From Pontibacillus halophilus JSM 076056 = DSM 19796 (GTDB taxonomy: Bacteria > Bacillota > Bacilli > Bacillales > BH030062), in contig NZ_AULI01000001.1 of assembly GCF_000425205.1 (NCBI RefSeq), positions 434,001-498,000 of the forward strand: a stretch of DNA of 64,000 nucleotides, given 5' to 3'. The position numbers and the translations under genes were made by a program. The notes under the pieces are model-generated. The model ran no database searches. It was not told where the DNA came from and worked only from the letters and a program-made list of their open reading frames with translations. The stretch's first letter is position 1. Every line of letters begins with the position of its first letter. Below are positions 1 through 8,134 of this stretch, piece by piece.

Positions 1-23
1 TCTGCAATATCCTCAAGTTTCAT
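1..23 (-). CDS. 5' end of an unidentified gene, possibly LacI-family regulator
   Basis: Only the first codons are inside the window. Read on the minus strand from 23 they give ATG and then KLEDIA, which resembles the start of LacI-type helix-turn-helix regulators. A purine-rich stretch lies upstream. Seven residues cannot establish a family, so this is only a pointer to what may lie to the left. Confidence 0.25.
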
Positions 24-213
24 TTTACACCCACTTCCATTTTGTTATATTCAATATTTAACAAGTGTTATATATAACTTATAACATATTTTTTTATGTG
101 TCAAACGTTGATTTTAGCCGATATGACTAAAAAATAATATACAAATTCTCTGAGTACCTGCATGTATATATGAAAAGGGGTACCCATCCGTTTCATGCCC
201 CACCCCTCTATAT

Positions 214-256
214 AAGACCGTCATTTATCCATTAGCGATAGATGATGGTCTTTTTT
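214..256 (+). terminator. Stem-loop with U-tract upstream of the 315 ORF
   Basis: An 11-bp stem with one G-T wobble (214-224 with 242-252) encloses a 17-nt loop and is followed by six T. It sits about 60 bp before a strong Shine-Dalgarno and could be the terminator of an upstream transcript or a leader attenuator for the small genes that follow. Confidence 0.55.
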
Positions 257-314
257 GTATTTACAGAGACGACTTGCGTGGTGAGAGGAGCGCATTTGAA
301 AGGAGGTGATGTAA

Positions 315-513
315 ATGAATCACACTATCAACAGTCTTAGTAGAAGCCAAGAAATTAGATAAGTGGGTTGCTGCTAAATATCTAGTGGAGTATGGGATCT
401 GTGAAGTTGGTCTGATGCAGCTCGAAGACGACGGGTTGTTATTAGTCAGTGATCGGAGAGATGAAGGAAAAGTATTGGAGCTGACATTGAAAGGTTATCA
501 CCACTTTAAGTAA
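315..513 (+). pseudogene. Small ORF interrupted by a +1 shift
   Basis: An ATG at 315 follows an excellent AAAGGAGGTGA Shine-Dalgarno, but its own frame stops after 15 codons. The +1 frame is open from 319 to 511 and reads like a real protein of about 60 residues, with segments KLDKWVAAKYLVEYG and LLLVSDRRDEGKVLELTLKG. That frame has no good start of its own. Either one extra base disrupts the gene (mutation or sequencing error) or a +1 frameshift joins the frames. The product is not recognised. It is followed 20 bp later by another small gene on the same strand. Confidence 0.45.
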
Positions 514-533
514 TAAAACTAGGAGGAGAGAGT

Positions 534-1046
534 ATGAAGATGAAATTCAGAAGATACCAAACCCAAGATTCTTTTGAAAACGGTAAAGATTTATCAAGAA
601 AAGAGGTAGATGAGCTTCTACTTTCATTAAAGCAACAGCTTGAAGAAGTAGACGAAGAAATCCTTCTCATTGTCGAAAGAAACGATTACGTTCAGCTAGT
701 TCAATTGCTCAAAAGACGCAAACAACTATATAACCTAATAACTGCTGTAGAAGCTTCACATAAAGATGATGATCAATCACAGTCAAACAAAAAAGGATTG
801 CATGAGTACCTGAAAGACAGTGCTACTTTCACATCGGCAAAAGGTGAGGAGATGATCAATAAATGGTGTGAAGCGATGGATAAATTCAATGATGGGTCAC
901 AACAGTCGTTATCAAATACCGTTGAATGGTCACATTCCATGTTTTCTAAAGGTAATCAACTTCAACATCAAATCGGCAGTTCGGTGGTTCGACAAACCGC
1001 CAGAAACCTAAACATTCTTGCACACATGGTTCACAAAAAATCTTAA
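534..1046 (+). CDS. Hypothetical protein, 170 aa
   Basis: The ATG at 534 follows an AGGAGG motif at 521-526. The protein is charged and largely helical. Residues about 20-75 look like a coiled coil (KEVDELLLSLKQQLEEVDEEI), followed by a polar linker and a second helical half. There is no signal peptide or membrane segment. I recognise no family. It precedes a phage/plasmid-type gene by 25 bp, and the two probably form one transcript in the accessory segment left of the rlmH element. Confidence 0.6.
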   Translation: MKMKFRRYQTQDSFENGKDLSRKEVDELLLSLKQQLEEVDEEILLIVERNDYVQLVQLLKRRKQLYNLITAVEASHKDDDQSQSNKKGLHEYLKDSATFTSAKGEEMINKWCEAMDKFNDGSQQSLSNTVEWSHSMFSKGNQLQHQIGSSVVRQTARNLNILAHMVHKKS

Positions 1047-1071
1047 GTCATTGAAAGGAGGTGAAATCAGT

Positions 1072-1794
1072 ATGAAGAATCGTCAAGGTAATATTATTCA
1101 ATTTTACGATAAAGAGAATGTCGATAAACAGTCGTTACCCAATATCGTCGTTTCATCTTCAGAATCACAACAGCGTATCCAGCAACTACAAACGTTTGTG
1201 GATGACGTGATGGTAAAGGGAGTTGACTACGGTTTAATTGATGGTTTCTCTAAGCCTACGTTACTGAAGCCAGGTGCAGAGAAGCTATGTGATGTATTCG
1301 GATTCTCTAAGACTGCAGACGTCGTCAATCGTATTGAAGATTGGGAGAAAGGTATCTTTGCTTATGAAGTGAAGATGACGCTCATCCGCAAAGATAACAA
1401 AATCATCGAAGCAGAAGGGCTAGGTTCCTGCAACAGCAAGGAAGCATCATTCCGACAACAGGATGCCTATTCTATCGTCAACACCATTTTGAAGATGGCG
1501 AAGAAACGGGCGTTGATCGACGCTGTCTTATCCGCAACACGATCCAGCGGCATCTTCACTCAGGACATTGAAGATTTTCCAAAAAGACAGACGTCAAACC
1601 AACATGCAGATAAGGTGACTAAAGCTCAGCTGCAGATGATCTTCAACATCATCGATGAGATGAATCTGCCGACGGACGTTGCCAAAGAAATCATGCAGAT
1701 TAGTTTTAACGTCGATCGAAGTAAAGACTTAACCAAGAGTCAGGCCTCGGACTTCATCCAAGATTTACTGGCATTGAAAGAGGTCAGAAGTTAA
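1072..1794 (+). CDS. Conserved phage/plasmid-type protein, 240 aa
   Basis: The start is taken at ATG 1072 because AAAGGAGGTG lies at 1054-1063; the open frame extends further upstream without a better ribosome-binding site. A conserved core covers roughly residues 45-150 (VDYGLIDGFSKPTLLKPGAE, later KMAKKRALIDAVLSATR and SGIFTQD). I associate this pattern with uncharacterised proteins of Gram-positive phages, plasmids and integrative elements. A role in DNA single-strand annealing or recombination has crossed my mind, but nothing visible proves it. It is soluble, with no signal peptide. The accessory RadC lies downstream. Confidence 0.6.
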   Translation: MKNRQGNIIQFYDKENVDKQSLPNIVVSSSESQQRIQQLQTFVDDVMVKGVDYGLIDGFSKPTLLKPGAEKLCDVFGFSKTADVVNRIEDWEKGIFAYEVKMTLIRKDNKIIEAEGLGSCNSKEASFRQQDAYSIVNTILKMAKKRALIDAVLSATRSSGIFTQDIEDFPKRQTSNQHADKVTKAQLQMIFNIIDEMNLPTDVAKEIMQISFNVDRSKDLTKSQASDFIQDLLALKEVRS

Positions 1795-1866
1795 ATGAAT
1801 ACAACAGGTGATCACCCATGGATTGCAAATGCAGTCGATGGCTTTTTTAATGCACAAAAAAGATGA
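1795..1866 (+). CDS. Possible 23-aa ORF
   Basis: An ATG abuts the stop codon of the 240-aa gene (TAAATG) and opens a 23-codon frame beginning MNTTGDHPW. It could be translated by coupling or be chance. There is no separate Shine-Dalgarno, and a terminator follows at 1943. Confidence 0.25.
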   Translation: MNTTGDHPWIANAVDGFFNAQKR

Positions 1867-1942
1867 GCTCATCGGCAATGTGAACTCATCAGACAACTTT
1901 TCTATATCAACAGTATATCGAATCAATAAGATTCACTCAATC

Positions 1943-1973
1943 AGGAGGGACGATCGTCGTCTCTCCTTTTTTT
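1943..1973 (+). terminator. Rho-independent terminator
   Basis: An 11-bp stem with one wobble (AGGAGGGACGA with TCGTCTCTCCT) is followed by seven or more T. It ends the transcript of the small accessory genes before radC. Confidence 0.8.
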
Positions 1974-2001
1974 AATTACAAATAAACTGGAGGAACTTAT
2001 A

Positions 2002-2610
2002 ATGAATAACACTATCGATAAAATGACATTCAAACACTTGCTTGCCACATCTACGAGAGAAAAGGAAGACAGCTATGTCGTAAATGAGATCTTCACTCGT
2101 TATCCATCAGTCAAAGAGCTATTGGATGTTACAGAAGAAGAGCTTATGCAGATCAAAGGGATCGGCAAAGTGAAGGCTGCTCAGATCATTGCTGCTTTAC
2201 AGTTGGCACGTATGAACCCATGCCCGTCTGAAGACCGTTTTACGATACGCTCACCCGAAGACGCGTATGATTATCTAAGCGATATGCAACATCTTGATCG
2301 AGAACATTTCGTCGTCCTTGGACTGAATACCAAGAATGAGATACTGTTCAAAGAAACAGTATTTATCGGTTCGTTGAATGCTTCCATCGTTCATCCAAGG
2401 GAATGCTTTAAACACTTGATTCGTCGTAGCTGCGCCAGTGCTATCGTCGCTCATAACCATCCTAGTGGGGACGTAACTCCAAGTACGGAAGATGTAAACG
2501 TTACGAAACGACTAGCTGAAGCCGGGAAGATGATTGGTATCGAGATACTGGATCACCTTGTCATCGGCCATGAGAAGTATTCTAGCTTGAAAGAAAAAGG
2601 TTACCTCTAA
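2002..2610 (+). CDS. radC: Accessory RadC (UPF0758) family protein
   Basis: The 202-aa protein has a helix-hairpin-helix (GIGKVKAAQI, residues 53-62) and a JAB/MPN metalloprotease-like domain with the metal motif HNHPSGD (His151, His153) and the downstream Asp164. The family is slightly longer in chromosomal copies (about 225 aa). Short extra copies are common on mobile elements. The biochemical role of RadC is unsettled; the old link to DNA repair is not well supported. The start follows GGAGG at a good distance. It has its own terminator, and its position beside the rlmH element fits an accessory origin. Confidence 0.85.
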   Translation: MNNTIDKMTFKHLLATSTREKEDSYVVNEIFTRYPSVKELLDVTEEELMQIKGIGKVKAAQIIAALQLARMNPCPSEDRFTIRSPEDAYDYLSDMQHLDREHFVVLGLNTKNEILFKETVFIGSLNASIVHPRECFKHLIRRSCASAIVAHNHPSGDVTPSTEDVNVTKRLAEAGKMIGIEILDHLVIGHEKYSSLKEKGYL

Positions 2611-2624
2611 ACACATGACAAAAG

Positions 2625-2666
2625 CCAGTGAGGATGGTGTTATTCATCATCTTCACTGGTTCTTTT
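2625..2666 (+). terminator. Terminator after radC
   Basis: A long stem pairs 2625-2639 with 2645-2659 (CCAGTGA ... TCACTGG with two wobble pairs) and is followed by a T-rich stretch. Confidence 0.7.
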
Positions 2667-2879
2667 ATCAATACAACAGTAAAATGGGGTAAGTTTTGGA
2701 GATGTTGCTCTTTTTTCTCTATGCTCCACATCAAGACCACCTAGAAACGTTGTCATATCAGCCTTTTTATTTTTTATGCGCATTTTACACAATAAGGAAA
2801 TCCACTAAAAATGCCATTTACTTATATATATACACGCTACATAGCAAAATTGTAACATTGTAACGCAAATTTATATGAA
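2667..2879. other. Intergenic, AT-rich, no gene seen
   Basis: Between the radC terminator and the 3' end of the second rlmH there is no credible ORF. A tandem ATTGTAAC pair lies near 2849-2864. If the element ends inside the rlmH copy, this stretch is the original 3' flank of the host rlmH. Confidence 0.5.
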
Positions 2880-3359
2880 TTATTTATGATATGGCTCGTT
2901 CTTCTGGATTTTGAATGCCCGATAGATCTGCTCCATTAATATCAGCTTCATCAACTGATGAGGGAACGTCATCTTCGAGAAGGAAAGCTTTTGATCTGCA
3001 CGCTTCAATACATCATTACTCAACCCATTTGATCCACCGATGACGAATGACACTTGACTCTTCCCATGGATGCTTAACTGCTCCATGTGTTTAGCTAGAT
3101 TCTCAGATGACCATTGCTCACCCTGTAGATCCAGAACAATAACGTACTGGTTTGGCTTTATTTTATTTAAGATCCGCTCCCCTTCTTTATCCTTCACCTT
3201 AATCATTTCTTTCTCACTCATTTGTTCAGGGGCCTGTTCATCGTTCACTTCATCCATCGTCAACTTGCAGTATGGGCGAAGACGTTTCTCAAACTCAGTG
3301 ATACCCTGTTTGATGTATTTCTCTTTAATCTTTCCGACACTTACAATTTGTATCTGCAT
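2880..3359 (-). CDS. rlmH: Element-borne second RlmH (23S rRNA pseudouridine-1915 N3-methyltransferase)
   Basis: A 159-aa SPOUT-fold methyltransferase with the family knot motif [10 protein letters not shown] (about 107-116), then LSFSKMT and the C-terminal EPYHK. RlmH methylates pseudouridine in helix 69 of 23S rRNA using SAM and works as a dimer. The start is ATG 3359 because GAGGTG lies 7 nt upstream; the TTG at 3365 touches the Shine-Dalgarno. By my hand alignment it is about 58% identical (92/159) to the RlmH at 7655-8134, so it is a diverged paralogue and not a recent duplicate. It is complete and has the canonical C-terminus that the other copy lacks. Its last codons on the coding strand match the SCC attB pattern closely. 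Confidence 0.92.
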
Positions 3360-3386
3360 ATCCAATCACCTCATTGTAACAGTTAA

Positions 3387-3420
3387 GCATACCCATTTTG
3401 AAAAGTACAATAGGGTATGC
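3387..3420 (-). other. Stem-loop between SpoVG-like gene and rlmH copy
   Basis: An 8-bp perfect inverted repeat (GCATACCC with GGGTATGC) has an 18-nt loop. No clear U-tract follows on the minus strand, so it is a weak terminator or mRNA-processing hairpin between two co-directional genes. Confidence 0.45.
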
Positions 3421-3428
3421 TCTTATCA

Positions 3429-3779
3429 TCAGCAAATCAAAGGGGTAAGAAACTTTTTCTTAGAAGAGATGATACGTTCTTTCTCCAATTTATATATGAA
3501 TTCAACATTTTTACCCTGTCTACTATTTACATAGTTATATATAAAGTGTTCATATTGATGAACCATACCATCATATATTTTTTCTTTAAGACTGTCGCTT
3601 ATCAATGTTATTGTACATTCACCTTCTTTAGAGGTTGGCAATGTTACATGATAACGCTCTGTACGATCAATTGACAGCTTTACCCCATGCAATGTTAGAT
3701 ATTCATCAATTGTAACCTGGGCTATCGCTAAGATATCTTGTGTTGGGAAAGTATCTATCACTTTAACTACAATACTCAT
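3429..3779 (-). CDS. SpoVG-like protein
   Basis: The 116-aa protein follows the SpoVG layout: an N-terminal strand, AIAQVTIDEYLTLHGVKL (about 18-35), a YHVTLPTSKEGE turn where SpoVG has FVAMPSKRT, and a helix with LKEKIYDGMVHQYE. SpoVG proteins bind nucleic acid and modulate septation, virulence or developmental genes. The match is to the fold pattern, so family membership is likely but the role is open. The start has GGAGGTGA at ideal spacing. It lies between the rep gene and the element's rlmH on the same strand. Chromosomal SpoVG is normally encoded elsewhere, so this is an accessory copy. Confidence 0.6.
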   Translation of the reverse strand: MSIVVKVIDTFPTQDILAIAQVTIDEYLTLHGVKLSIDRTERYHVTLPTSKEGECTITLISDSLKEKIYDGMVHQYEHFIYNYVNSRQGKNVEFIYKLEKERIISSKKKFLTPLIC

Positions 3780-3861
3780 AATGAATTCACCTCCAGATTA
3801 CACAAAATTGAATGCTGTTAGTATTGATGATAAAATCAAGGTATTCAAAGATTTCTTTAAT

Positions 3862-3900
3862 GACTGTCTACTGTTCCCCCAGAACAGAGGCAGTCTTTTT
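3862..3900. other. Stem-loop overlapping the rep stop codon
   Basis: An inverted repeat (GACTGTCTaCTGTTC with GAACAGAGGCAGTC, one bulge and one wobble) has a C-rich 5-nt loop. The T-run lies on the plus strand, against the direction of rep. It could terminate antisense transcription or be part of a rolling-circle origin, since such origins use hairpins. No nick-site motif was recognised. Confidence 0.5.
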
Positions 3901-4938
3901 ATTAACAACTAATAATGGTGGCAATTTAGCGTCACTTATTAGGAGATCATTAACAACTAATAATGGTGGCAATTTAGCGTCACTTATTAGGAGATCATCA
4001 ACACCTAACACATCCAGCAGTTTACTTCTTCTCTTTCTATAACCCGATGACGAGTATTTGGACTTACACATTTCTTCACCGTTAACAAATAATTCAGTAA
4101 AGAATCCAATTAAAGCTGTAGAAGACCTCGTATTTGATGACTGTATATTAATATCATCAATCACTTCTTGATATGATGTATATTTCACCCCGGCACTAAG
4201 CCCATTTCTATCTAACCCCTTTTGAATTACTTCTTTACCAAAATCCATATCTAACAAGTCCACAGCTTTTCTGGAGGGATTAACCTCTCTGATTTCCCTG
4301 TCAGAAAGCTCTATCTCATACCGCAATAAACCTTTCGCATCCATTAAGTGCTTTTCTTTGTCATCATAGTTTTTTTGTTGTCTTACTTCCGCTTCTTTAT
4401 CATATATTTTCTCTTCCTTTTTCGCTCCTTTCCACTCTACTGTTTCAAGTCTATCGCTGCCTTTCTCAAAGTGGAAAGCTCTATCAAATTTAGCTATGAC
4501 TTTGGAAGAGACAGCTTGAAGATAGTGCGTTTTATGATGGCCTACTTGGAAGTTCTTGCAAACATGTAGCTTTTCAATGATAAAGTGCTCCTTGGTCGGA
4601 ATTCTACCTATGCTTACTTTCAACTGTAACGACAAATACTTACGAATGACTTTAAAGAAGTTGTCTATATCATTATTGTTGATTTCATATACATTTGAAC
4701 CGATTAGAAAGTTAGGAATGGAAGCCTCGACTTTCAACCAACATCTGTCTGGGTCGTCTTCTTTATAGGTGTAACGAATAAAAGGAGCCCCTCGCAAACT
4801 TGCATCGTGGAGGACATGAAAAACAGTCCTTGATCCATTGTTCGTCCTATAATTAGTGTTTATCCTGTCCCATTCTATCCTCTGAATCTCTTCTATACTT
4901 AATGCTAATGGAACCCCTAATTTAACAGTATCAAACAT
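3868..4938 (-). CDS. Phage/plasmid replication protein, gene II/X family (rolling-circle Rep)
   Basis: The 356-aa protein starts MFDTVKLGVPL, as is typical of the gene II/X (phage CRI) family of HUH-type nicking proteins that start rolling-circle replication. The central block KIYDKEAEV (177-185) and the later LLRYEIEL match conserved family positions. I cannot point with certainty to the catalytic Tyr or the metal-binding histidines. AAGGAG precedes the ATG by 9 nt. The C-terminus carries a 16-residue tandem duplication. It is co-directional with a 42-aa ORF upstream and the SpoVG-like gene downstream, and divergent from the regulator-recombinase pair. It suggests that the excised element can replicate. 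Confidence 0.75.
   Translation of the reverse strand: MFDTVKLGVPLALSIEEIQRIEWDRINTNYRTNNGSRTVFHVLHDASLRGAPFIRYTYKEDDPDRCWLKVEASIPNFLIGSNVYEINNNDIDNFFKVIRKYLSLQLKVSIGRIPTKEHFIIEKLHVCKNFQVGHHKTHYLQAVSSKVIAKFDRAFHFEKGSDRLETVEWKGAKKEEKIYDKEAEVRQQKNYDDKEKHLMDAKGLLRYEIELSDREIREVNPSRKAVDLLDMDFGKEVIQKGLDRNGLSAGVKYTSYQEVIDDINIQSSNTRSSTALIGFFTELFVNGEEMCKSKYSSSGYRKRRSKLLDVLGVDDLLISDAKLPPLLVVNDLLISDAKLPPLLVVNKKTASVLGEQ
3901..3996. repeat. Exact 48-bp tandem duplication
   Basis: Two adjacent identical 48-bp units (3901-3948, 3949-3996) lie within the 3' end of the rep gene. The unit is 16 codons long, so the frame is kept and Rep residues about 315-330 are repeated at 331-346. Exact identity suggests a recent duplication or selection on the DNA, for example as a protein-binding iteron. 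Confidence 0.95.
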
Positions 4939-4986
4939 AATCCCCCGCTCCTTAAGTACCTAGTTGTGCACGTATTACAGAGAAAA

Positions 4987-5115
4987 TCATTTATTGTCGG
5001 TTTTCTTCAAATATTCTTCAAGCATCTCGGATACTTTACTAATAAAAAGATCACCTTTTTCCTTCTTCGCTGAATAATACTCATACAAGCTCTCTTCCTT
5101 CATTTCTTGAGTCAT
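4987..5115 (-). CDS. Small protein of 42 aa ahead of rep
   Basis: The minus-strand frame from ATG 5115 encodes a hydrophilic, mostly helical 42-residue protein (MTQEMKEESLYEYY... ending KKTDNK). A GAGGTG Shine-Dalgarno lies 6 nt upstream, which supports translation. It ends about 50 bp before the rep start, probably in the same transcript. No family is recognised; a copy-number or Rep accessory role is only a guess. Confidence 0.6.
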   Translation of the reverse strand: MTQEMKEESLYEYYSAKKEKGDLFISKVSEMLEEYLKKTDNK

Positions 5116-5244
5116 TATCTTCACCTCACTTTCTGAGGAAAAGCATATCACATTATTTTATATACAATCAACACCCAGGTGACATATAACTGACATTATG
5201 GTATTATCAGTGTATCTTATCTTACTCATTTAGGAGTGATCAAA
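5116..5244. promoter_or_regulatory. Divergent promoter region of the element
   Basis: For the rightward regulator-recombinase pair, CTGACA (5190-5195) and TATCTT (5213-5218) are separated by 17 bp. For leftward transcription, TTGATT (complement of 5166-5171) with TATGCT about 18 bp further is a weaker candidate. The region lies between the HTH gene and the rep operon, where the HTH protein could act on both directions. Confidence 0.5.
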
Positions 5245-6000
5245 ATGAAAAAGGCACTACTTAACGTAAAAGACCTCTCTGAACTAAAACAGCTATCCAT
5301 TGGAAAAAGGGTTAAGTACATAAGAGAAACGCTTCGTAAAAAATTCGGAAATGATTTTAGTGTGAAAAGTGTCACCCAAAGAATTAATTTGTTTTCCAGA
5401 TCCACTTTAACCGCTATTGAAAAAGGAAATACAAAGGATATCTATTCAACTTACCTACATGGTCTTGCAAAGGACTTTGGTGTGTCTTTATATGTTTTCT
5501 TCGATGACTACTATGACGATTTAGAAAAGTCTGTAGAGCTTGCTCCGAACATATATAATACTGCTCAAGCAGCAGAAAAAAGCATAAATAAAAATCGTGA
5601 TTTAACCCGTATGACAGTTAACCCCCTATTTGAAAAAGAGTATAGAATTAAAACCACTGTCACTAGGATAGCTTCGAATGATGACGAACAAGATATGTTC
5701 ATCTACACCAGTAAGACCAAACTAAATAATGAGCGTCTATTCACCTTCTTAAGTACCATCATTAATCAAACCAACTCTAATGATGTTTTAATAGATCCTG
5801 ATGTTTCAGAGAAAGAAAATCTACCTGATCCTTTAAAGCTCGCTAAAGAATACTTAAACTACGGTAATCACTTTCTAGATACTTTTCCATGGCATTCAAA
5901 AAAAGGAAAAGATTCTTATGACAATCAAGCATATGAAGATGCGATAGTTTATACACAAAAATTAAAAGAAGATTATGAGAGGAGAAAAGAAGATGAGTGA
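5245..6000 (+). CDS. XRE-type helix-turn-helix regulator of the element
   Basis: The 251-aa protein has an N-terminal HTH region (about residues 18-75: IGKRVKYIRETLRKKFG ... SRSTLTAIEKGNT ... YLHGLAKDFGVS) resembling XRE/Cro-type repressors. The remainder is unrecognised. ATG 5245 is preferred because AGGAG lies 8 nt upstream; a GTG at 5236 overlaps that motif. Its stop overlaps the recombinase start by 8 bp, implying translational coupling. The likely role is control of recombinase and divergent rep transcription (inference from position). Confidence 0.75.
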   Translation: MKKALLNVKDLSELKQLSIGKRVKYIRETLRKKFGNDFSVKSVTQRINLFSRSTLTAIEKGNTKDIYSTYLHGLAKDFGVSLYVFFDDYYDDLEKSVELAPNIYNTAQAAEKSINKNRDLTRMTVNPLFEKEYRIKTTVTRIASNDDEQDMFIYTSKTKLNNERLFTFLSTIINQTNSNDVLIDPDVSEKENLPDPLKLAKEYLNYGNHFLDTFPWHSKKGKDSYDNQAYEDAIVYTQKLKEDYERRKEDE

Positions 6001-7807
6001 TAAAACCCCAGTAGCAATTTACGCTCGTGTAAGTACGGAAGAACAAGCAACAGAAGGGTACAGCATTCAGGGGCAAATTGAAGAAATGGAGACCTATGCT
6101 GAACAACGAGGTATGGAAGTGGTAAGAAGATATCTGGATGAAGGCGTTAGTGGAAAGAATATCTCCGGTCGTCCGCAGATGAAACAATTACTGAAGGATC
6201 TTGGCAGCGGGGACTTTCAGGCAGTTATCGTCTATAAGATCGATCGGATTTCTCGTAAGTCTAAAGATGCCTTGGAAATTGCAGAAAGATTTGATCAGGC
6301 GAATGTAAAACTGATTAGTCTTAAGGAAGATATGGACATTACTACGCCAATGGGTAAAATGATGTTTCAGATGGCCAGTAACTTCTCCGAATATGAACGT
6401 AATTCCACTATCGAACGACTGAAAATGGGCATGAGTCAACGTGCTAAACAAGGGTATTACAATGGCGGACTAGTGTATGGATACGACAGTGTGAATAAAG
6501 AATTGGTGATCAACAAAAAAGAAGCTCATGTCATCCAACTCATTTTTGACTACGTTGAAGAAGACTTTGGCTATAAAGCGATTGTCAGTAGAATCAATTC
6601 GATGGGATTTAAAACAAAGCGCGGAAATGATTTCGCAATACACACTATAAAAACAATTCTCGATAATCCTTTATATATTGGTAAGATCCGCTTCAATATG
6701 TACGAGAATTGGAGCGAGAAGCATCGTAAAGGGAAGAACGAGAACTATATACTAGTGGATGGAAAGCACCAGTCAATCATCTCTAACGAACAGTGGGAAC
6801 GGGTACAGAAAATACGCAAGAAAAGATCTCACAAGCCATCACGCTCACAATCCCCTTATTTACTAAGTGGATTGGTCAGATGCCCTCAATGTGGACACGG
6901 GATGGTTCCCGGAAGATCTAATGGCGGAAACGGCAAGAAGTATCGGTATTACGTTTGTGGCTTTCACCATAACAAAGGAAAAACCGCTTGTCGTGCCAAT
7001 TCGATTAGAGCTGAGAGAGTTGAAGAATCTGTATTTGAAGAACTAAAGCGTATCGTAGCCGAACCCTATGTACTAAAGAACATTGTTCAGAGTGTGAACG
7101 ATAAGCGAATGAACGCGAAAGATCCTATCGATGAACAGATCCGCATTCACGAAAGTAAGCTGAAGAAGATTGAAGGACGAATTGATAACACAACCACTCA
7201 ATTGATGGACGACCCAACTCTTGCTGCAATCTTTAAGCCAAAGTTGCAGGAGATGATGGAAGAGAAAGTGTCATTGGAGCAGAAGATTGAAGAATTGAAC
7301 GTAGAGTTAAGCGAATGTGATACAGCACCTATTGATGAAGATGCACTTTATCACCTGCTTAGTAATTTGGAGACGATCTTAAGTAAATCAGATATCACTC
7401 AACAAAAGGCATTGCTTCATCTGATCATTAAAGATATTCAAATTACAAAAGATGCTCCACGGAGAATCGGACGACGTGTAGAGAACATCAATCTACACTT
7501 CGACTTCACAATCGAAGGTTTGGAACATCAAACCATGGATTTGTTGAATACGATGAACAACATGGATTTTATCAAGCCGATAGAGTCTTGGGAACTGGAA
7601 AGTATGGAGGGAGTGAGCCGGAGCGAATTGATGGATTCGCTTAATATTTTACCCTTAAACGAGGTACGGTTCCCCCCGAATAATCCGAAACGCCCGATAC
7701 ACCTGCTCCAACAACACCAATCGCATGAGCTGGTGGGGCAGTGTCATCTTAGAGAAGGACAGGGCATAATCGGACCGCTTCATCACTTCATCACTCAACC
7801 CAAGTGA
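5993..7807 (+). CDS. Large serine recombinase (integrase) of the element
   Basis: The 604-aa protein has a resolvase-type catalytic domain (YARVSTEEQ with nucleophile Ser14; [29 protein letters not shown]), a recombinase domain (about 165-270), a zinc ribbon ([10 protein letters not shown] ... [17 protein letters not shown], about 300-342), and a coiled coil (about 385-445). This is the architecture of phage and SCC-type integrases that join attP and attB at a 2-bp core. ATG 5993 has GAGGAGAAAAG upstream and overlaps the regulator stop. The last 48 codons (from 7661) are antisense to native rlmH, so the C-terminus is chimeric and depends on the integrated state. Confidence 0.93.
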
Positions 7808-8134
7808 TCCTCCTATCACGAACGTAACCTTGCTTTTCCCGTACGTCGCAAGATTATCAATATCTTTCGCGAGTTGCTCAGACGTAATCATTTTCCCTTT
7901 AATTTCGAGGGTGATGACGTGGTCATCGTGTGAGATTTTGCTTAGGATGCGTTCTCCTTCTTTTCGTTTCACTTCTTCCATATCGGCCTCACTTAGGTTC
8001 TCGGGTGCTTTTTCGTCCGGGACTTCGACGAGATTTATGTTGGCGTAGGCGCCGAGTCGCTTTGTATATTCGTCTATGCCTTGTTTTAAGTATTTTTCCT
8101 TTAATTTACCTACTGAAATAATTGAGATTTTCAT
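7655..8134 (-). CDS. rlmH: Native RlmH with altered C-terminus
   Basis: The 159-aa SPOUT methyltransferase is at the conserved chromosomal position near htrC and the CxxH/CxxC gene. The knot motif [10 protein letters not shown] and [13 protein letters not shown] are intact. The ATG has GGAGGG 6 nt upstream. The protein ends GEPYLV, while the family ends EPYHK or a close variant; the last two codons and the stop appear to come from the integrated element. In RlmH the conserved C-terminal tail is thought to contribute to the composite active site of the dimer, so this copy may be impaired. It overlaps the recombinase 3' end antiparallel by 153 bp. Confidence 0.93.
7658..7670. other. Putative right attachment junction (attR) in rlmH
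   Basis: On the rlmH strand the native gene reads GAACCGTA and then CCTCGTTTAA, where the other rlmH copy and the SCC attB pattern continue with TCATAAAT plus a stop. Similarity to a normal rlmH end stops inside the penultimate conserved Tyr codon, marking the crossover within about 3 bp. The exact core dinucleotide cannot be fixed from one side. Confidence 0.6.

Follow-up and report, generated by a model that had tools for sequence, protein, structure and literature searches.

A cassette-like island in rlmH of Pontibacillus halophilus that alters the tail of its target and carries a second RlmH

Why does one stretch of the Pontibacillus halophilus chromosome hold two dissimilar rlmH genes, and why does the chromosomal copy end without the residues of a functional RlmH? 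The stretch that we analysed (the window hereafter) comprises 64,000 nucleotides of strain JSM 076056 = DSM 19796 (C1:434001-498000, contig NZ_AULI01000001.1; window coordinates are used below, with negative numbers lying left of the window start). The original prediction had noted two rlmH copies in the same orientation, and both indeed lie on the minus strand, rlmH2 at 2880-3365 and rlmH1, the chromosomal target, at 7655-8134. We propose that a 17.1-kb defence island resembling the staphylococcal cassette chromosome (SCC) enters the last codons of rlmH by means of its own large serine recombinase (core GAACCGTA, centre GA). The attachment (att) half of the rlmH2 lineage no longer encodes H-K, and integration therefore swaps the catalytic tail of the host RlmH from PYHK to PYLV or PYIF, which should inactivate it. 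The complete rlmH2 carried by the element (YHK or YHR tail) may then serve as a replacement, probably sparing the host; the displaced host tail is stored at the far junction, from which excision would restore the host gene, and the Rep protein may replicate or mobilise the excised circle. We put the probability that the element disarms its target RlmH and supplies a replacement via rlmH2 at roughly 0.7, on the strength of the observed boundaries, the observed tail swap and the observed linkage between a broken host tail and a second RlmH.

The element measures 17,091 bp and runs from its far end at C1:424580 (window -9420) to window 7671 at the rlmH1 3' end, its portion inside the window being 1..7672 (no strand). 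The att core GAACCGTA at the rlmH1 end occupies 7665..7672 on the minus strand, and crossover is predicted at its dyad centre, GA at 7671-7672. The earlier idea of a 4.8-kb element (2880-7670) with the second rlmH as its far junction could not be upheld: a third rlmH-end-like site, detected 9.4 kb left of the window start, is the far end, and rlmH2 is internal cargo. This follows from elements without rlmH2, which pass from the recombinase-Rep block straight into radC; they continue to a far att site, and a left end at rlmH2 was rejected on these grounds. The G+C content is 0.38 in the element part within the window and 0.33 in the part outside it, versus 0.43 in the right flank. The right-hand neighbours of rlmH1 are those of rlmH in relatives, and the empty rlmH locus that the original prediction told us to look for exists in G001, G004 and G007 (G numbers label sample genomes, the analysed genome being G000), where the adjoining gene, dus, lies 635-691 bases from the rlmH 3' end. 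Between the far end and dus in the analysed genome there are about 6 kb (L004 4477-10580) whose genes are absent from that place in these three relatives.

The pairing of a recombinase with a Rep gene at rlmH recurs in other Bacillaceae-like genomes. Searched against 397 genomes of the order, the recombinase found 43 genomes at E <= 1e-100; rlmH lies within the examined flanks at 28 of the 31 fetched recombinase loci (L046-L076), and radC together with a gene for a 240-aa protein is present in 8 of 20 longer stretches (L077-L096). The gene order in the closest relatives is rlmH, recombinase, regulator, Rep module, in some of them rlmH2, then radC, the 240-aa gene and cargo. The far-end sequence TACGGT-GA-ACCGTA was read in 14 distinct elements (15 rows, L004 and L202 being one site), and its arm TTTACCNTA mirrors GGTAA of the rlmH side. 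When element ends were joined in silico, 15-19 of 24 positions matched in the attP dyad about GA in all 13 joined elements. A search with a 20-base motif, allowing at most 3 mismatches, gave matches in 8 of 16 genomes (reversed control motif, 3 of 16); the motif located no far end in G003, G005, G027, G080, G346, G398, G399 and G405. Seven carriers of rlmH2-type elements are considered below: the analysed genome, G005 of the same family (taken to be Pontibacillus litoralis JSM 072002), G080, Salirhabdus (G386), V. alimentarius, C. horneckiae and A. haloalkaliphilus. The far end is resolved in the analysed genome, Salirhabdus and V. alimentarius; in the last it lies on another contig and was paired as the sole motif match in that genome.

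Integration alters the last codons of rlmH1 from GEPYHK to GEPYLV. The gene is otherwise a clear family member (NCBIfam RlmH, 263.1 bits), and its product, ending EPYLV, lacks the C-terminal Y-H-K/R of functional RlmH. Among 31 rlmH genes read, 29 end EPYHK (28 host genes and rlmH2) and two end EPYLV, namely rlmH1 of the analysed genome and rlmH1 of P. litoralis. The host tail is YIF in G080, Salirhabdus (L100) and A. haloalkaliphilus, and YIFQG in V. alimentarius and C. horneckiae. The rlmH2-type elements have altered bases at the H-K codons and retain the outer att arm AGGGTA with its spacing. In Escherichia coli the active site of each RlmH monomer is completed by the C-terminal tail of its partner, and the Y152F, H153F and R154A variants have undetectable activity (PMC5430550). 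The YLV and YIF tails keep the Y and alter the H and R/K positions; since the matching E. coli positions are essential for catalysis, we infer that the tail-swapped RlmH1 is dead.

The displaced host codons were located at the far junction, and because they are kept there, predicted excision restores GEPYHK. In silico joining of the ends gave GEPYHK followed by a stop in 12 of 13 elements, and in four of these 12 the host tail now reads YLV, YIF, YIFQG or YRR; the thirteenth, in G066, gave YHK without an immediate stop.

How closely does a broken tail go with a second RlmH? A PF02590 scan of the 397 genomes matched 395 of them, and 12 had at least two matches. Six of these 12 (G000, G005, G080, G386, G049 and G328) hold a full-length second RlmH, and the other six (G114, G253, G279, G333, G370 and G381) hold fragments or weak matches. 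The host tail is broken in 6/6 genomes of the order sample with a full-length second RlmH, and 90/90 read genomes of that sample without one end Y-H-[KR] (reading batches of 28, 22, 6, 18 and 16). Fisher's test for 6/6 versus 0/90 gives p 1e-9, uncorrected for kinship, with controls that are a non-random set of close relatives, recombinase carriers, two-match genomes and the top of an E-value-sorted list. Outside the order sample, a second RlmH and a broken tail occur together in 5/5 genomes (V. alimentarius, C. horneckiae, A. haloalkaliphilus, P. sanguinis and G665); for A. haloalkaliphilus the rlmH2 was known first, and the host tail, read afterwards, proved broken. Sorted by the type of carried gene, the tail is broken in 7/7 genomes found with rlmH2-type elements and in 4/4 with an intact divergent RlmH of 133 aa at the locus (P. 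sanguinis, G049, G665 and G328). In nine named genomes, carriers or relatives, there is a single RlmH and its tail is still YHK (G401-G405 and G766-G769, G404 being the same place as G347). In G370 (L231 9420-10906) a partial relative of the recombinase lies beside an rlmH 3' fragment (positions 82-154) at another site of the genome, far from the intact rlmH.

The divergent RlmH extends the linkage beyond the rlmH2 family. The P. sanguinis element (host tail YRR) holds a 133-aa RlmH that ends PYHK and is 31% identical to rlmH2; relatives 56-60% identical to this copy lie near rlmH in G049, G665 and G328, where the host tails read GDAYHTKP (G049 and G665) and GEA-stop (G328). G049 and G328, which are outside the set of joined elements, have a recombinase at the far side, flanked by a GEPYHK-stop sequence. 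The P. sanguinis recombinase is 50% identical to that of the analysed genome; those of G049 and G328 are 50% identical to each other and 31-34% to that of the analysed genome, and since these two share one lineage we count two recombinase lineages. The two G665 stretches examined yielded no recombinase. The coupling thus spans two recombinase lineages and two RlmH families, and we lean slightly towards a recurrent arrangement, in which rlmH-targeting elements more than once shed the need to rebuild the host's catalytic tail by recruiting an RlmH of their own, and a resident element runs the rRNA modification of its host. The divergent RlmH is rare: at E <= 1e-22 a search of 398 genomes of the class found it in one; phages gave 12 records, all at most 35.4% identical, and a scan of viral contigs with it found no relatives. 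The recombinase closest to that of P. sanguinis (100/100) belongs to P. ehimensis, where a divergent RlmH is interrupted by an in-frame stop (G399:C2:178958-179350), 66 kb from rlmH; the host rlmH of P. ehimensis keeps YHR, and a broken second RlmH thus stands alongside an intact host tail.

Is rlmH2 simply a duplicate of its neighbour? The carried gene scores 248.4 bits against NCBIfam RlmH (NF000985, cut-off 172) and has an intact EPYHK tail; all seven rlmH2 proteins end EPYHK or EPYHR. A recent copy of rlmH1 was excluded by the 59% identity between the two. The idea that the rlmH pair marks a target duplication fails for the same reason and also by the tree, where rlmH2 stands apart from all host rows: among 57 RlmH proteins, the seven rlmH2 rows split from 48 host rows on a branch with support 100/100. 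Two long-branched divergent RlmH rows attach among the rlmH2 rows, and the tree leaves rlmH2 monophyly unreadable. The broken host genes in the tree sit among host genes; for instance, that of C. horneckiae groups with G034, and that of V. alimentarius with Ornithinibacillus and kin (missing from the tree are the host RlmH of G080 and of A. haloalkaliphilus and the divergent RlmH of G049 and of G665). A comparison of rlmH2 with plasmids returned 55 records, the best at 65.4%. RlmH2 is presumably made and presumably methylates the ribosome at pseudouridine 1915 (E. coli numbering), the position modified by a functional RlmH.

Other explanations of the two genes have to be set against this reading. 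The altered RlmH1 tails might be functional enough, with rlmH2 a chance passenger and nothing replaced. The Y of PYHK is indeed retained in the YLV, YIF and YRR tails, and the effects of tail changes are known from E. coli RlmH alone; yet H153F and R154A are inactive there (PMC5430550), all 90 other read genomes of the order sample keep Y-H-[KR], and a different RlmH family accompanies broken tails in P. sanguinis and in the second recombinase lineage, so we regard a chance passenger as unlikely. A clearly smaller chance falls to the 4.8 kb between the rlmH copies being the mobile unit, with junctions in both 3' ends and a second element arranged in tandem on the left. A similar core does occur in both rlmH 3' ends, and composite islands with several rlmH-end repeats are described in PMC10061031. 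This unit is hard to reconcile with the rlmH2-less elements, which hold recombinase, Rep module and radC together and have the same far end, with the rlmH2 3' end, which lacks the TACGGT half and the TTTACCCTA arm of distal ends and is predicted to be inactive as a recombination site, and with radC standing beside rlmH2 in P. litoralis, V. alimentarius, C. horneckiae, Salirhabdus and G080. Least probable, by a hair, is that tail breaking serves the element in some other way, as host addiction or by removing the site from competing rlmH-targeting elements, with rlmH2 as part of the device. Host dependence during integration would follow from tail loss, and rlmH is targeted by more than one recombinase lineage; against this, predicted excision regenerates the host gene, so clean loss should be cost-free.

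Several points weigh against disarming and replacement itself. RlmH activity, RlmH2 expression and excision are all predicted. With 301 of the 397 genomes unread and the 90 controls non-random, there may be genomes whose tail is broken and which have no second RlmH. The seven rlmH2 carriers are kin, possibly representing one event, and the far end is resolved in 3/7 of their elements. The GDAYHTKP tails of G049 and G665 retain Y-H and may be partly active. Either order of events, tail loss first or rlmH2 first, is possible.

The gene that would carry out the integration is the large serine recombinase at 5975..7807 on the plus strand (to about 7672 inside the element). It was correctly recognised between the rlmH copies from the beginning and has the Resolvase, Recombinase and zinc ribbon (Zn_ribbon_recom) domains that define this class. 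Its scores against the Ccr families are 394.9 bits (CcrB), 297.1 (CcrC) and 112.3 (CcrA), with cut-offs of 900, 900 and 700, respectively; it is CcrB-like yet outside the CcrA, CcrB and CcrC cut-offs. The gene abuts rlmH1 and its frame crosses the junction; because the frame crosses the att site, the C-terminus differs between the two states, and the predicted length is 610 aa integrated versus 574 aa in the predicted circle. The end of the frame (7655-7807) enters rlmH1 antisense, and the predicted circle C-terminus is FTVTLNRVK. The recombinase of the analysed genome shares 63-67% identity with those of V. alimentarius, C. horneckiae and Salirhabdus. In a recombinase tree of 17 rows, a clade with support 100/100 unites G000, P. 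litoralis and G080; the rows cover 17 of 26 labelled loci, V. alimentarius, C. horneckiae and Salirhabdus being among the nine missing. A viral contig scan with the recombinase alignment found no relatives.

The gene II-type Rep that had been called between the copies is present at 3868..4938 on the minus strand and is probably a rolling-circle initiator. PF05144 scores 19.9 bits, just under its cut-off of 21.7, phrog_702 ('replication protein') matches at 6.3e-11, and a relative in G109 exceeds the PF05144 cut-off with 32.3 bits. The C. horneckiae Rep is of the same gene II-like type (57% identical). A second Rep type occurs in P. litoralis, Salirhabdus, V. alimentarius and A. haloalkaliphilus, tied to Rep_trans directly via G346 (1.1e-8) and weakly via Salirhabdus (0.022); no Rep was identified in the G080 element. 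Among rlmH2-type elements the replication module is thus a swapped part, whereas the recombinase remains paired with rlmH2. Likeness to Rep_trans and gene II (Phage_CRI) initiators consists of the weak sequence match and the head of the structure list: with a Rep model of mean predicted local distance difference test (pLDDT) 70.4, the list is headed by RepDE and Geobacillus rolling-circle replication initiators (Z 8.4 and 8.1). It differs in that TATA-binding proteins score nearly equally (Z 8.1), and Foldseek against the PDB gave nothing at E <= 0.001. Foldseek against BFVD gave five matches at E <= 0.001, the top three unnamed; a PDB sequence search with the Rep profile found none, and a comparison of Rep with plasmids gave no match. 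It is plausible that the excised circle replicates via Rep, and a relaxase role for this protein, in which Y179 is invariant, is conceivable. A tandem duplication of 48 bases towards the 3' end of the gene (3901-3996) doubles a stretch of 16 residues (DLLISDAKLPPLLVVN) close to the C-terminus and is absent from aligned relatives. The P. litoralis Rep (L035 12854-13943) is split into two frames near a G run, where sequencing error and decay are indistinguishable.

The remaining genes agree in the main with what had been read from the letters. The SpoVG-like gene (3429..3779, minus strand) is there as a weak relative, with 26.4 bits for PF04026 under a cut-off of 29.6. The small open reading frame (4987..5151, minus strand) matches no family; the 42 aa given for it apply from an inner ATG, and from the GTG it has 54 aa. 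A regulator-like gene does lie at 5236..6000 on the plus strand, and its helix-turn-helix assignment has to be relaxed to a sub-threshold HTH_19 match (0.034). Beyond rlmH2, all on the plus strand, follow radC (2002..2610; PF04002, 3.1e-44), which adjoins the Rep module in relatives too, the conserved 240-aa protein (1072..1794; phrog_10048), and a gene shared with the P. litoralis element that matches no family above cut-off (534..1046). The 240-aa protein has no assigned function and is 46-95% identical to copies in 10 other elements; its structure model has low confidence (mean pLDDT 59.6), and a PDB sequence search with it gave nothing convincing. The cargo of the element in the analysed genome includes a type I restriction system; that of P. 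litoralis has bacteriophage exclusion (BREX)-like genes instead (BrxC C-terminal half, PglX and PglZ).

If the proposed reading is true, an att site can be freed from the need to encode a working gene end, ribosome modification comes under the control of a mobile element, and an altered target tail combined with a carried homologue becomes a simple signature to look for at other integration sites.

The SCC-like character that had been predicted, with insertion in the rlmH 3' end, a single recombinase and a Rep-type gene, is borne out by gene content and by att repeats at both ends. The element shares with SCC and with the enterococcal cassette chromosome (ECC; PMC6222049) an island in the rlmH 3' end, large serine recombinases and restriction or other cargo. 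It differs in a recombinase far below the Ccr cut-offs, in having one recombinase gene, in another Rep type, and in carrying an rlmH and breaking the host tail. No Cch-type helicase (MCM-like, DUF927/D5-like) was found with Pfam, NCBIfam, PHROGs and PADLOC in the examined element proteins, some small open reading frames being untested. Two rlmH alleles, under 75% identical, are described for enterococci in PMC6222049. Published work on Bacillales already describes islands with large serine recombinases downstream of rlmH, some of them composite and equipped with restriction systems; these Pol-SSB islands resemble the present element in recombinase, restriction systems and site, and the last rlmH codons were likewise used to locate the second end (PMC10061031). 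No Pol-SSB or helicase was found among the examined genes of the present element, which instead has a carried rlmH and a Rep of the gene II-like type. SCC-like islands at rlmH are thus already known, and the new part would be a carried RlmH that replaces an overwritten tail, of which a literature search with most subscription papers outside it found no report.

The general view is that an integrating element leaves its target gene unharmed or rebuilds it, and some elements restore the 3' end of their target. The present element resembles these in supplying sequence that would preserve the target function. Here, however, the catalytic tail is overwritten, the rebuilt 3' end lacks the catalytic residues and a separate full homologue is carried, and this has occurred with two RlmH families.

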